From Streptomyces specialis (lineage in GTDB: Bacteria; Actinomycetota; Actinomycetes; Streptomycetales; Streptomycetaceae): a stretch of DNA of 64,000 bases. Below the pieces are notes generated by a model. It was not told where the DNA came from. It saw only the letters and a list, made by a program, of their open reading frames with translations, and made no database searches. The stretch spans positions 166,524 through 230,523 of the forward strand of contig NZ_LN929897.1 of the NCBI RefSeq assembly GCF_001493375.1, given 5' to 3'. Shown in pieces: positions 53,432-56,822 of the stretch (within the stretch, counting starts at the first letter, position 1; every line of letters begins with the position of its first letter). Position numbers and translations under genes: made by a program.

Positions 53432-54709
53432 ATGGACGCCATCACCATCATCCGCGCCAAGCGCGACGGCGGGGCCCTGACCCCCGAGCAGATCGACTGG
53501 ATCATCGCCGCGTACACCGCCGGCGAGGTCGCCGACGAGCAGATGGCGGCGCTGGCCATGGCCATCCTGCTCAACGGCATGACCCGTCCGGAGATCGCCC
53601 GCTGGACGGCGGCGATGATCGCCTCCGGCGAGCGGATGGACTTCTCCCGCCTGCCGCTGCCGACGACCGACAAGCACTCGACGGGCGGTGTCGGGGACAA
53701 GATCACGCTGCCGCTGGCCCCGCTGGTGGCGGCCTGCGGCGCGGCCGTTCCGCAGTTGTCGGGCCGGGGCCTCGGCCACTCGGGCGGCACGCTCGACAAG
53801 CTGGAGTCCATCCCCGGCTGGCGGGCCTCGCTGGACAACGACGAGATGCTGGACGTGCTGCGCGAGGCCGGGGCCGTGGTGTGCGCGGCGGGTGCCGGGC
53901 TGGCCCCGGCGGACCGGAAGCTGTACGCGCTGCGCGACGTGACCGGGACCGTCGAGTCGATCCCGCTCATCGCCTCCTCGATCATGTCCAAGAAGATCGC
54001 GGAGGGCACGGGCGCGCTGGTGCTGGACGTGAAGGCGGGCTCGGGCGCGTTCATGAAGACGGTCGAGGACGCCCGCGAACTCGCCGAGACGATGGTCGAG
54101 ATCGGCACCGACCACGGCGTGCGGACGGTCGCCCTGCTGACGGACATGAGCACGCCGCTGGGTCTGACGGCGGGCAACGCGCTGGAGGTGCGGGAGTCGG
54201 TCGAGGTGCTGGCGGGCGGCGGGCCGGCGGACGTGGTGGAGCTGACGCTGGCGCTGGCCCGGGAGATGCTGGACGCCGCCGGGCTGACCGACGCCGACCC
54301 GGCGCGGGCACTGGCGGACGGGTCGGCGATGGACCGCTGGCGCCGCATGATCACCGCCCAGGGCGGCGACCCGGACGCCCCGCTGCCGACCGCGCGGGAG
54401 ACGCATGTCCTGACCGCGCCGGCCTCCGGGGTCCTCACCGGGCTGGACGCGTACGCGGTGGGCGTGGCGGCCTGGCGCCTGGGGGCGGGCCGTACCCGCA
54501 AGGAGGACCCGGTGCAGGCGGGCGCGGGTGTGGAGCTGCACGCCAAGCCGGGGGACCGGGTGACGGCCGGGGCGCCGCTGCTGACGCTGCACACGGACAC
54601 CCCGGAGCGGTTCGACGCGGCCCTCGCCGAGCTGGCGGGGGACGCGATCCGGATCGAGGAGGAGGCAACAGCGCGAACGACTCCGATCGTGCTGGGTCGT
54701 ATCGCGTAG
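53432..54709 (+). CDS. deoA: Thymidine phosphorylase
   Basis: The protein has 425 residues. It has the NP-II family pattern: IIRAKRDGGALTPEQIDWIIAAYTAG, MDFSRLPLPTTDKHSTGGVGDKITLPLAPLVAACG (phosphate site), SGRGLGHSGGTLDKLESIPGW and LVLDVKAGSGAFMKTVEDA. It splits thymidine or deoxyuridine into base and deoxyribose-1-phosphate, the step after import and deamination. It follows cdd by 16 bp and is the last gene of the nucleoside salvage operon. Confidence 0.97.
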   Translation: MDAITIIRAKRDGGALTPEQIDWIIAAYTAGEVADEQMAALAMAILLNGMTRPEIARWTAAMIASGERMDFSRLPLPTTDKHSTGGVGDKITLPLAPLVAACGAAVPQLSGRGLGHSGGTLDKLESIPGWRASLDNDEMLDVLREAGAVVCAAGAGLAPADRKLYALRDVTGTVESIPLIASSIMSKKIAEGTGALVLDVKAGSGAFMKTVEDARELAETMVEIGTDHGVRTVALLTDMSTPLGLTAGNALEVRESVEVLAGGGPADVVELTLALAREMLDAAGLTDADPARALADGSAMDRWRRMITAQGGDPDAPLPTARETHVLTAPASGVLTGLDAYAVGVAAWRLGAGRTRKEDPVQAGAGVELHAKPGDRVTAGAPLLTLHTDTPERFDAALAELAGDAIRIEEEATARTTPIVLGRIA

Positions 54710-54863
54710 CGTTTCCGACCGGTCCTTTCACGGTCTCGCAACGTTCATGCCAAACCCATAGCCGACTGTCCGTAATGTCGGAATTTTTGCCATGATCGTT
54801 GCTGATGCCTTGTACCCTGAAGAACGGTTTCGGCGGACCGACACGGCAGGAGGTGAGACTGCG

Positions 54864-54917
54864 ATGCGCAGTGAACCTCCCAGTCATCCCCCGCGCCGCG
54901 TCATCCCGCCCAGGTAG
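54864..54917 (+). CDS. Proline-rich leader peptide upstream of mgtE
   Basis: ATG 54864 is preceded by AGGAGGTGA (54848-54856), a nine-base exact complement of the 16S rRNA 3' end, at 7-nt spacing. The frame encodes MRSEPPSHPPRRVIPPR and stops at TAG 54915-54917. Six of 17 residues are Pro, in three PP pairs, one after Glu. The last three codons (ccg ccc agg) form the 5' arm of a hairpin. The arrangement recalls the Salmonella mgtL leader, where Pro- and acid-rich nascent chains make translation Mg2+-sensitive. I infer a Mg2+-responsive control element; there is no experimental basis here. Confidence 0.6.
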   Translation: MRSEPPSHPPRRVIPPR

Positions 54918-54954
54918 TCGAGCGGCCTGGGGCGGCAGGCGTGTGCGCGCACAC
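54906..54954 (+). promoter_or_regulatory. Tandem hairpins in the mgtE leader
   Basis: Hairpin 1 pairs ccgcccagg (54906-54914, the end of the leader ORF) with cctggggcgg (54926-54935, one bulged G). Hairpin 2 is the perfect palindrome gtgtgcgcgcacac (54941-54954). mgtE starts 44 nt later. A ribosome near the leader stop codon would block hairpin 1, so translation of the leader could set the downstream RNA fold. Confidence 0.5.
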
Positions 54955-54998
54955 CGGATGCCCGTGATCGCCTTCCGTCTCCTGGGGGTTCCTCCGTC

Positions 54999-56324
54999 AT
55001 GACCCACCTGCCCGCCCTGCTGGAAGAGCACGACCTCGCGGGGGCACTGGAGTGGCTGGAGACGCAGCCACCGTACGCCATCGCGGACGAGATCGCCCGG
55101 ATGGACGCCGTCGAGTCCGTCATCACCTTCCGGCTGCTGGACAAGGACCGCGCGCTGGAGGTCTTCGAGGAGCTGGAGCCCGTCGACCAGCAGCAGATCC
55201 TGGAGGGCCTGCGCGACCAGGCGTTCCGCGACCTGGTCGAGAACATGGACCCCGACGACCGGGCCCGGATGCTGAAGGAGGCCCCGGCCAAGGTCGCCAA
55301 GCGGGTGCTGGCCGGGCTGAGCGCGCACGAGCGGCAGATGACCGCCGCCCTGCTGGGATACCCCGAGGGGTCCGTCGGCCGGTTCATGACCCCCGAGACG
55401 GTCGCGCTCCAGCAGGACCTGACCGTGGGTCAGGCGCTGGAGGTGGTCCGCCGCCGGGGCGCCCACGCCGAGACCATCTACACCCTTCCGGTGGTGGACC
55501 GAGGGCGCCGGCTGACCGGCATCGTGGAACTGCGCGAGCTGGTGCTGAGCGAGCCGGACGCCATGGTCTCCGACCTGGTGGTGACCGAGCCGCCCAAGGC
55601 CAGGGCCACCGCCCGCGCCGAGGACGCGGCGCGGCTGATGCGCGAGACGAACGTGCTCGACCTGCCGGTCGTGGACAGCGAGGACCGGCTCGTCGGACTG
55701 CTGACCAGCGACGACGCGTTCGAGGTCATCGAGGCGGCGGACACCGAGGACGTCGCCCGCCAGGCCGGCGCCGAGCCGCTGGAGCGGCACTACATGTCGG
55801 CCAGCGTCTTCCAGTTGTCCCGCACCCGCATGATGTGGCTGATGCTGCTGCTGGTGGCCGCGACGCTGACCGTGTCCGTCACCCAGATGTACGAGGGCGA
55901 GCTGAACGCGGTCACCGATCTGGCCCTCTTCGTCCCCCTGTTGATCGGCACCGGCGGCAACGCGGGCGCCCAGGCCGCCACGGCGGCGGTCCGGGCCCTG
56001 GCGGTCGGCGAGGTGCGGACCTCCGACCTGATCCGGGTCATCTGGCGCGAGTGCCGGACCGGTCTGCTGCTCGGCTGCATGCTGGCGGGCGTCGGCTTCG
56101 TCGTCGGCGCGTTCTTCGTCGGTCTCGACGTGGCGGCCGTGGTCGGCCTGACCCTGATCGTGATCTGCGCCTGGGCCTCGACGGTGGGCGGCACGATGCC
56201 GCTGCTCGCGAAGAAGCTGCGCATCGACCCGGCCGTGGTCTCGGCCCCGATGGTCACCACGCTGGTGGACGCCACCGGCCTGGTCATCTACTTCTCGATC
56301 GCCAAGGCGGTGCTGGGTATCTGA
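54999..56324 (+). CDS. mgtE: Magnesium transporter MgtE
   Basis: The protein has 441 residues. An N-terminal MgtE_N helical domain (about 1-125, ending RVLAGLSAHERQMTAALLGYP) is followed by two CBS domains (about 130-250: RFMTPETVALQQDLTVGQALEVV; ARATARAEDAARLMRETNVLDLPVVDSEDRLVGLL) and five TM helices with the signature PLLIGTGGNAGAQAATAAVRAL. The cytoplasmic domains gate the channel by binding Mg2+. The start has only a weak GGGGG upstream, unlike the near-perfect SD of the leader peptide before it. Confidence 0.96.
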   Translation: MTHLPALLEEHDLAGALEWLETQPPYAIADEIARMDAVESVITFRLLDKDRALEVFEELEPVDQQQILEGLRDQAFRDLVENMDPDDRARMLKEAPAKVAKRVLAGLSAHERQMTAALLGYPEGSVGRFMTPETVALQQDLTVGQALEVVRRRGAHAETIYTLPVVDRGRRLTGIVELRELVLSEPDAMVSDLVVTEPPKARATARAEDAARLMRETNVLDLPVVDSEDRLVGLLTSDDAFEVIEAADTEDVARQAGAEPLERHYMSASVFQLSRTRMMWLMLLLVAATLTVSVTQMYEGELNAVTDLALFVPLLIGTGGNAGAQAATAAVRALAVGEVRTSDLIRVIWRECRTGLLLGCMLAGVGFVVGAFFVGLDVAAVVGLTLIVICAWASTVGGTMPLLAKKLRIDPAVVSAPMVTTLVDATGLVIYFSIAKAVLGI

Positions 56325-56387
56325 CGGCGGATCGGGCCCGGCCCGGCGCCGGTGCCGACCGGGAGCCGAGCGCCTACGCTGGGTGGC

Positions 56388-56822
56388 ATGGCTGACACAG
56401 ACATCCACGACAGCCCGGCGAGCTGGGTGAACGACCATATCCGCCGCTATGTCGAGACGGACGGCCGCGAGGGACACCTCTGGCGGGACGGCGTCCCGAC
56501 GCTGCTGCTGACCACGCGCGGCCGCAAATCCGGCCTGCTGCGCCGGACCGCCCTGATCTACGGCCGGGACGGCGACGACTATCTGGTCGTCGCCTCCCAG
56601 GGCGGCAAGCCGGAGCACCCCGCCTGGTACCACAACCTGGTGGCCGACCCGGAGGTCCGGCTCCAGGTGGGGGCCGACAAGTTCCGGGCCCGCGCCCGCA
56701 CGGCCACCCCGGAGGAGCGGGCCCGCCTCTGGCCGCGGATGACGGAGATCTGGCCCGACTACGACGAGTACCAGACGAAGACGAGCCGGGAGATCCCGAT
56801 CGTCGTCCTGACCCGCCTCTGA
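56388..56822 (+). CDS. Deazaflavin (F420)-dependent nitroreductase-family protein
   Basis: The protein has 144 residues. The Ddn/FDOR-A pattern is present: WVNDHIRRYVETDGREGHLWRDGVPTLLLTTRGRKSGLLRRTALIYGRDGDDYLVVASQGGKPEHPAWYHNLVADPEVRLQVG. Such proteins use F420H2 to reduce quinones or other small molecules. TACGCT ends 7 nt before ATG 56388 and there is no SD, so a leaderless transcript is plausible. Confidence 0.9.
   Translation: MADTDIHDSPASWVNDHIRRYVETDGREGHLWRDGVPTLLLTTRGRKSGLLRRTALIYGRDGDDYLVVASQGGKPEHPAWYHNLVADPEVRLQVGADKFRARARTATPEERARLWPRMTEIWPDYDEYQTKTSREIPIVVLTRL

Follow-up and report, generated by a model that had tools for sequence, protein, structure and literature searches.

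A family of Glu-Pro-Pro-Ser leader peptides upstream of mgtE and corA genes in Actinobacteria: a candidate Mg2+-responsive attenuator

Short leader open reading frames (ORFs) have been described in front of genes for Mg2+ transport in several organisms, and the account given here follows excerpts of the cited reports. For MgtL, the leader of mgtA in Salmonella and E. coli, good translation of the leader is reported to lower expression of the transporter (PMC11552253, PMC11282234), and two versions of the sensor have been published. In the first, an early motif of acidic residues and proline destabilises the ribosome (PMC11282234); in the second, the proline codons CC[C/U], found at codons 3, 5 and 7 of MgtL, are read slowly by tRNA-Pro without m1G37, a modification that the Mg2+-dependent TrmD makes (PMC6335274). 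CorL, a leader ORF that stands before corA in E. coli and Salmonella, is described as inversely related to corA expression, with involvement of Rho (PMC11552253). The mgtE gene of M. abscessus is reported to carry an M-box and a ribosome-protected upstream ORF (uORF) of the VcgB type (PMC4974804), and conserved small uORFs in mycobacterial M-box leaders are reported for pe20 and rv1535 (PMC12810186). Pro-Pro stalling in a short leader is also a feature of the RAPP-type arrest peptides (PMC10951233, PMC10987492), and in animals a uORF is said to confer a Mg2+ response on the mRNA of the Mg2+ channel TRPM7 (PMC4227784).

The leader ORF that we describe has a Glu-Pro-Pro-Ser core (EPPS leader) and was analysed in a window of 64,000 nucleotides of Streptomyces DNA, by which we mean the whole stretch that was studied. 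Like MgtL, as described, it is a short ORF with an early acidic residue and proline before a gene for a Mg2+ transporter, and its two conserved proline codons are of the CC[C/U] type in 72/72 and 66/72 distinct leaders, respectively; like CorL, it also precedes corA. It differs from MgtL, with which it is compared by description, in belonging to another phylum, in its near-invariant EPPS with AGU at residues 4–7, in the possible helix of its distal codons and in having no gene for a P-type ATPase (mgtA) downstream, the identified genes being mgtE, corA and an MgtE_N/CBS gene with an Nramp gene. CorL has fewer proline or acidic residues and no EPPS core in the part of its description considered (PMC11552253). 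The mycobacterial M-box uORFs share with the EPPS leader the occurrence in Actinobacteria and the association with Mg2+-related genes, but they are described as lying downstream of an M-box and encoding a peptide of the VcgB/Rv1805A type, and on that description we set them apart, as the EPPS loci searched have no M-box match. Within the window, no match to the M-box (RF00380) was found in 53500–56500 up to E 5; all Rfam matches in that segment up to E 5 were below threshold and none lay over the leader, and no Rfam family reached the gathering threshold at 35 loci including mgtE, corA and MgtE_N leader loci. The RAPP-type peptides are reported with protein-localisation genes, whereas the EPPS core goes with Mg2+ transporter genes; the TRPM7 uORF is eukaryotic and resembles the EPPS leader by description only. 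In contrast to amino-acid attenuators, two prolines are conserved without a run of regulatory codons, and the identified downstream genes encode transporters. A survey of Streptomyces lividans describes amino-acid leaders, and the words 'corA' and 'magnesium' are absent from its main text as far as this was available (PMC8079986); an mgtE motif is described as confined to Thioalkalivibrio (PMC11109978), the part of PMC3388012 considered contains nothing on an EPPS leader, and literature searches by peptide string and topic, which covered few subscription journals and no preprints, gave no description of one among the matches listed. The best reading of these comparisons is that the EPPS leader would work like MgtL and CorL, yet constitutes a separate actinobacterial family when judged on its downstream genes and on the features that were compared.

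The features of the locus are collected in Table 1. A thymidine phosphorylase gene lies upstream of the leader, and the gene downstream encodes a full MgtE (TIGR00400 404 bits with a cut-off of 233; PF01769 plus MgtE_N and CBS). The original prediction, made from the letters of this DNA, had proposed a 17-codon ORF 7 nt after a nine-base Shine-Dalgarno sequence (SD), and direct reading confirmed its coordinates, with the start codon ATG at 54864 and the stop codon TAG at 54915–54917, 81 nt ahead of the mgtE start; it was also correct in regarding mgtE's own SD as weak, the run of five G being all that is present. The three Pro-Pro pairs that it emphasised are all there (residues 5–6, 9–10 and 15–16), but only the pair at residues 5–6 is conserved, the other two being lineage-specific. 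Its hairpin, formed between the final three codons, CCGCCCAGG, and CCTGGGGCGG (54926–54935), does exist, but it is not perfect because one G is bulged, and it would be only the tip of a longer helix that could extend from 54885 to 54960. The second palindrome that it noted is indeed perfect over 14 nt but is poorly conserved, and its left half lies inside the 3' arm of the longer helix.

Table 1. Positions of the leader, the candidate regulatory elements and mgtE in the window.
Feature	Position	Strand	Basis
Leader SD, AGGAGGTGA	54848..54856	+	Read directly; GGAGGTG-type SD in 37 aligned relatives
Leader ORF, 17 codons, MRSEPPSHPPRRVIPPR*	54864..54917	+	Peptide family before 80/81 mgtE loci, also before corA
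Proposed sensor core, codons 4–7, GAA CCT CCC AGT (Glu-Pro-Pro-Ser)	54873..54884	+	72 distinct leaders
Long helix, 5' arm: leader codons 8–17 plus one base	54885..54915	+	Folds, arm swap tests
Long helix, 3' arm, with the partner of the originally predicted hairpin and the left palindrome half	54924..54960	+	Folds
Palindrome of 14 nt, GTGTGCGCGCACAC	54941..54954	.	Retained by some members of the window's clade only
rut-like candidate, C-rich and G-poor, ahead of the mgtE ribosome site	54962..54983	+	Base counts
Weak SD of mgtE, GGGGG	54984..54988	+	By eye
mgtE, Mg2+ transporter, 441 aa	54999..56324	+	TIGR00400; PF01769, PF03448, PF00571

The upstream regions of mgtE relatives, for which we took the best 80 of 128 (from Streptomyces, Nocardia and one Nocardiopsis), contain the leader at 80/81 loci when the window is included, the exception being locus L021. 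The pattern used for these regions tolerated up to 5 changes in the 22-nt ORF part and up to 2 in the SD part, and this looseness, together with retrieval by protein, left room for other codons to appear. The SD, the ORF and the Pro-Pro pair, which the original prediction proposed to follow through relatives, are thus conserved; typical peptides are MRSEPPSHPPR.. in the window's clade, MRSEPPSRRPRG.. in Nocardia and MSSEPPSRPPRG.. in Nocardiopsis. Of 61 genomes of the window's genus, eight have a full mgtE (E ≤ 1e-60); the leader was found at five of these eight loci and was not found at three, whose proteins are 63–69% identical. The genome of the window itself has no CorA match at E ≤ 1e-80, and mgtE may be a main Mg2+ route there; all 30 other genomes searched in the genus have such a match. 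A strict IUPAC pattern of the SD and the ORF core gave four matches in 396 Actinomycetota genomes (the locus of the window, two further ones at mgtE genes and one at an MgtE_N/CBS gene), and the same pattern read backwards gave none among the matches listed in the same genomes. In the genomes compared, conservation of the leader is beyond chance. The MgtE_N/CBS gene belongs to a genome of another class (G382), where the leader is followed by a gene for a protein with MgtE_N and CBS, whose TIGR00400 match is partial and under the cut-off, and then by a gene for an Nramp-type transporter (PF01566).

When 393 genomes of the class were searched with a model of 37 leaders (R1), this yielded 31 matches with E ≤ 3e-5, all of which were examined: 7 lie ahead of mgtE, 21 ahead of corA and three, from family f6, ahead of a 28-aa ORF (L125, L126 and L127). 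One of the CorA proteins (L106) was identified by TIGR00383 and PF01544, and the other 20 are 64–93% identical to it. In the family f6 loci, no MgtE, CorA, MgtE_N/CBS or Nramp match was found within the 6 kb taken. The leader there reads VRDSDPPSRGR.. and the 28-aa ORF is conserved and hydrophobic (MSRYVAPLSFTLAAVWVAVVFVLAGGGH in L125); it may encode a small membrane protein that belongs to this regulon. Among 17 weaker matches that were examined (L128–L144, E 3e-4 to 0.008, a range shared by several others), none was convincing and none had MgtE, CorA, MgtE_N/CBS or Nramp nearby, short Pro-Pro ORFs being found in L129, inside an opposite-strand gene, and in L143.

A second model, built from 28 diverse leaders (R2), gave 19 matches in 150 Streptomyces genomes, of which 12 precede mgtE and 5 precede corA, the remaining two being L158, ahead of an insertion-like sequence, and one match without a leader. 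In L158 the leader MHGEPPSRTPRG.. is followed, as judged by eye, by an apparent insertion sequence at the position where corA would be expected. The same model matched 14/22 genomes of family f89 and 13/100 genomes of family f7, with a leader in six of the latter (one before mgtE, five before corA), and two of 148 genomes of the class of G382, where only G382 was convincing. When 34 loci from the R2 searches were scanned, 12 had no MgtE, CorA, MgtE_N/CBS or Nramp, L158 among them; eight of the 12 have no EPP-type ORF, and in L181, L186 and L193 an EPP ORF is present but no Mg2+ gene, the serine codon being AGC in two of them and Ala replacing Ser in the third. The presence of the leader is patchy: among the fifteen closest corA loci of Streptomyces it was not found at 13, one has it and one has a variant with Arg, and no EPPS leader was found at six mgtE loci from another genus, of family f3. 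Taken together, the searches indicate that one leader family stands before genes for MgtE, CorA and the MgtE_N/CBS–Nramp pair.

The composition of the core was counted in 133 accepted leaders, 72 of them distinct over the first ten codons; the ORFs of L181, L186 and L193 as well as L208 fall outside this set, so the counts describe accepted leaders, and those found with a model resemble that model by construction. Among the 72 distinct leaders, Pro-Pro occupies residues 5–6 in 69 and residues 6–7 in 3, the preceding residue is Glu in 68, Asp in 3 and Gln in one, and the following residue is Ser in 71 and Gly in one. The first proline codon is CCT in 54 and CCC in 18 (CC[CU] throughout), the second is CCC in 44, CCT in 22 and CCG in 6 (CC[CU] in 66), and the serine codon is AGT in 71/72, the single glycine being GGT. 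For comparison, the proline codons of mgtE itself at the first 80 loci are CCG in 63%, CCC in 34% and CCT in 1.3%, and AGT accounts for 5.4% of its serines. At the first core proline, CC[CU] is used in 55/55 distinct cores compared to 65/165 other proline codons of the leaders (114 leaders, the window's own left out; Fisher 3e-18, a p-value that is overstated because related leaders are treated as independent). What is conserved is a single [E/D]-Pro-Pro-Ser core and not three Pro-Pro pairs, and these counts show conservation of that core in coding, position and codon choice among the leaders aligned. The C-terminal half of the leader varies in sequence, and the leader itself measures 9 to 28 residues in nearly every case, with short forms of 9–12 residues among them and 54 residues in L160. 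Individual corA loci depart from the common form: in L165 the leader (MCGEPPSRVP..) meets no stop codon ahead of corA, so that the two overlap in different frames, in L208 the variant MSGGGSRPPSPCPG has Arg before the Pro-Pro and retains CCTCCCAGT, and in L190 the leader is the nine-residue MSSQPPSTR.

The codons beyond the core may also form one arm of an RNA helix. Where the leader precedes mgtE, those that follow the core (CCG CGC GG..) lie opposite a downstream element, GGNGCC-CGCGGTG, and the 7-mer CGCGGTG occurs in 21/55 dereplicated downstream regions compared to about 2.4 expected from shuffles. The duplex energy of native arms, when compared with that of arms swapped between leaders, was −36.4 vs −32.4 (sd 0.49) for 63 dereplicated leaders, −38.6 vs −34.8 for the mgtE leaders alone (n=42) and −39.7 vs −37.2 (sd 0.60) for Nocardia leaders alone (n=26), and in none of 5000 permutations for each of these three sets did swapped arms pair as well as native ones. 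Covariation was weak in the corA leaders alone (n=17), with −32.9 vs −31.0 and p 0.008, and in the corA leaders of family f89 a consensus pairing CGCAGGG:TCCTGCG shows one-sided changes only. Two positions with two-sided changes were found among 34 distinct arm pairs, the first being G-C in 17, A-U in 10 and G-U in 7 (34/34 paired) and the second C-G in 19, U-G in 7 and U-A in 6 (32/34 paired), where the better of two registers was taken for each leader, a choice that leans towards pairing. These comparisons show that the distal codons can pair with the downstream element and that the two arms covary in mgtE leaders.

Other measures of the same helix are less favourable. Against shuffled downstream sequence, the native arms have a mean z of −1.7, with z < −2 in 30/63 leaders, and L090, L112 and L155 show no pairing signal in this comparison. 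The stability of the stem in the window is unexceptional by energy (z −0.72), and although the helix is present in the consensus fold computed for the window's clade, its covariation term there is unfavourable (+0.33) and two-sided change is seen in only 3/45 pairs. The helix is missing from the consensus fold obtained for 18 Nocardia leaders, where the 5' arm is paired with the SD and start region of the leader instead, which may represent a competing fold.

We consider that the best explanation of these observations, with a probability of roughly 70%, is a Mg2+-responsive leader-peptide attenuator of transporter genes. The conserved features suggest that the ease with which the ribosome translates the leader would serve as a gauge of magnesium. 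The strong SD would load a ribosome onto the leader, where it would reach Glu-Pro-Pro-Ser within six codons, a motif presumably difficult for a ribosome whose nascent chain is still very short, and spelled in CC[C/U] proline codons and the rare AGU serine codon. With ample Mg2+, the ribosome would pass on to the stop codon and keep the distal codons, i.e., the 5' arm, unpaired, and transporter expression would be low; with low Mg2+, it would stall or drop off at Pro-Pro, and the distal part of the leader, left by the stalled or lost ribosome, would pair with the arm that lies downstream, and expression of mgtE or corA would follow. The geometry fits a classical attenuator, since a stop at residues 5–6 would free most of the 5' arm and a ribosome at the stop codon would cover it. 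Translation of the leader is itself presumed here, and the direction of control, in which good translation of the leader would mean little transporter, is adopted by analogy from MgtL and CorL. The strongest pointer to Mg2+ as the probable signal is the position of the leader before Mg2+-type genes, although the Nramp partner could carry another metal. The putative sensor would be ribosome drop-off or a slow tRNA-Pro: the E/D residue and the early position of the core fit ribosome destabilisation, the CC[C/U] bias fits sensing through m1G37 and tRNA-Pro, and both chemistries may act.

The original prediction of an attenuator of mgtE has thus gained from the conservation of residues and codons and from the association with CorA and MgtE_N/CBS–Nramp genes, and has lost its details of the hairpin and the Pro-Pro pairs. 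Against a Mg2+ attenuator count the disagreeing folds, the z of −0.72 in the window, the restriction of clear pairing to 30/63 leaders, the weak covariation in corA leaders, the patchy presence at Streptomyces mgtE and corA loci and in family f3, and the family f6 loci, which are without a MgtE, CorA or Nramp match. The leader family nonetheless is real and conserved, and a Mg2+ attenuator is its best explanation as far as sequence comparison goes. A more far-reaching form of the proposal, which we put forward tentatively and would not bet on, is that of a portable Mg2+ gauge that Actinobacteria evolved independently of MgtL, in which an early Glu-Pro-Pro-Ser stop-point, coded as CCY-CCY-AGU, would stand before three unrelated transporter types and be read by its own distal-codon helix, the ribosome failing when tRNA-Pro(GGG) is poorly methylated (TrmD needs Mg2+) or when Mg2+ is short.

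With regard to the output step, the region between the helix and the main SD contains more C than G in 43/43 dereplicated leaders, with C exceeding 1.5 times G in 38 of them. A rough control, made up of 23 sites that precede other ORFs in the window and in many cases lie inside genes, gives 14 and 7 for the same two counts. Such a C-rich gap fits loading of Rho, without constituting proof, and a Rho-type output is what we infer for the attenuator. Neither an intrinsic terminator nor a sigma-70 consensus promoter was found in 54700–55020. That either arm, 3' or 5', conceals the ribosome site of mgtE was considered and rejected, as native pairing was no better than swapped, and given neither this nor an intrinsic terminator, the output step is putative.

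The alternative closest to the proposed attenuator keeps the sensor and changes the output, so that the freed 3' arm would cover the ribosome site of the transporter gene. In the consensus fold of the 18 Nocardia leaders, the GAGG ahead of mgtE is indeed paired with a portion of the 3' arm, but among 36 dereplicated mgtE leaders the native energy of −21.1 compares to −21.5 for swapped sequences (p 0.81), and we regard a translational output as rather unlikely. Somewhat less likely again is an attenuator that responds to prolyl-tRNA or EF-P (translation stress), with the Mg2+ genes downstream being incidental. The Pro-Pro core and the CC[CU] bias would also fit sensing of one tRNA-Pro, and control of mgtA by EF-P through the proline codons of mgtL is reported (PMC6460261, in the part considered). 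This explanation is at odds with the genomic context, where 28/31 of the strongest matches adjoin MgtE or CorA genes and the other three a 28-aa ORF, and with the conservation of two prolines and no proline run.

It is improbable that the locus is a structured RNA regulator, based on pairing of the SD with the proline codons (GGAGGU:ACCUCC) or of the start region with the distal codons, in which the ORF would be incidental. The 6-bp pairing of the SD is possible in 93.7% of cells, and native cores, with relatedness ignored in both comparisons, fold a little more favourably than synonymous codings drawn with mgtE usage (mean z −0.34, p 0.004) and markedly more so than evenly drawn codings (mean z −0.80, p 6e-11). 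The helix of SD and proline codons, however, has no two-sided change and its A-U pair is broken in 13/37 leaders, the pattern of conservation is that of coding (E/D, Pro-Pro at residues 5–6, third-base changes), and none of the 35 loci scanned, some of which are not leader loci, has an Rfam family at the gathering threshold. Action of the peptide in trans, or +1 frameshifting on CC[CU] that would deliver ribosomes to the mgtE start, is very improbable, since conservation does not extend to the peptide's C-terminal half and the +1 frame, although open from the core to an ATGA overlap with mgtE in 8/10 leaders of the window's clade (54864–55002, L001–L009), ends likewise only in L011 among the other 70 mgtE loci, in a scan that took first in-frame ATGs as main-gene starts, some of them wrong (L077 surely).

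If a Mg2+-responsive attenuator is the true explanation, sensing of Mg2+ by leader peptides would have arisen separately in two phyla with the same ingredients, namely an early acidic residue, proline and CC[C/U] codons, and this would suggest that what actually senses Mg2+ is some physical property of the ribosome or tRNA-Pro. The natural variants of the core, in codons and in residues, provide a ready series of mutants with which the two published hypotheses on the mgtL sensor could be separated. The leader would also serve as a marker of the Mg2+ regulon in Streptomyces, Nocardia and their relatives.

Leaders of other types were encountered near the same kinds of genes. In one genus of family f3 (g3, locus L225), a short ORF close to mgtE, with its own SD, encodes MSSPGPPERRTSAVKVTADV, which is without the EPPS core. 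In the window's genus, a second group of CorA proteins, starting with MSMIRDLRA, is adjoined at 14/15 loci (L210–L223; L224 is without it) by a different conserved leader ORF, MD[RP]S[RH]P.S.., which has a strong SD and begins with ATGGAC or GTGGAT in four loci, and which is possibly a second Mg2+-related leader.
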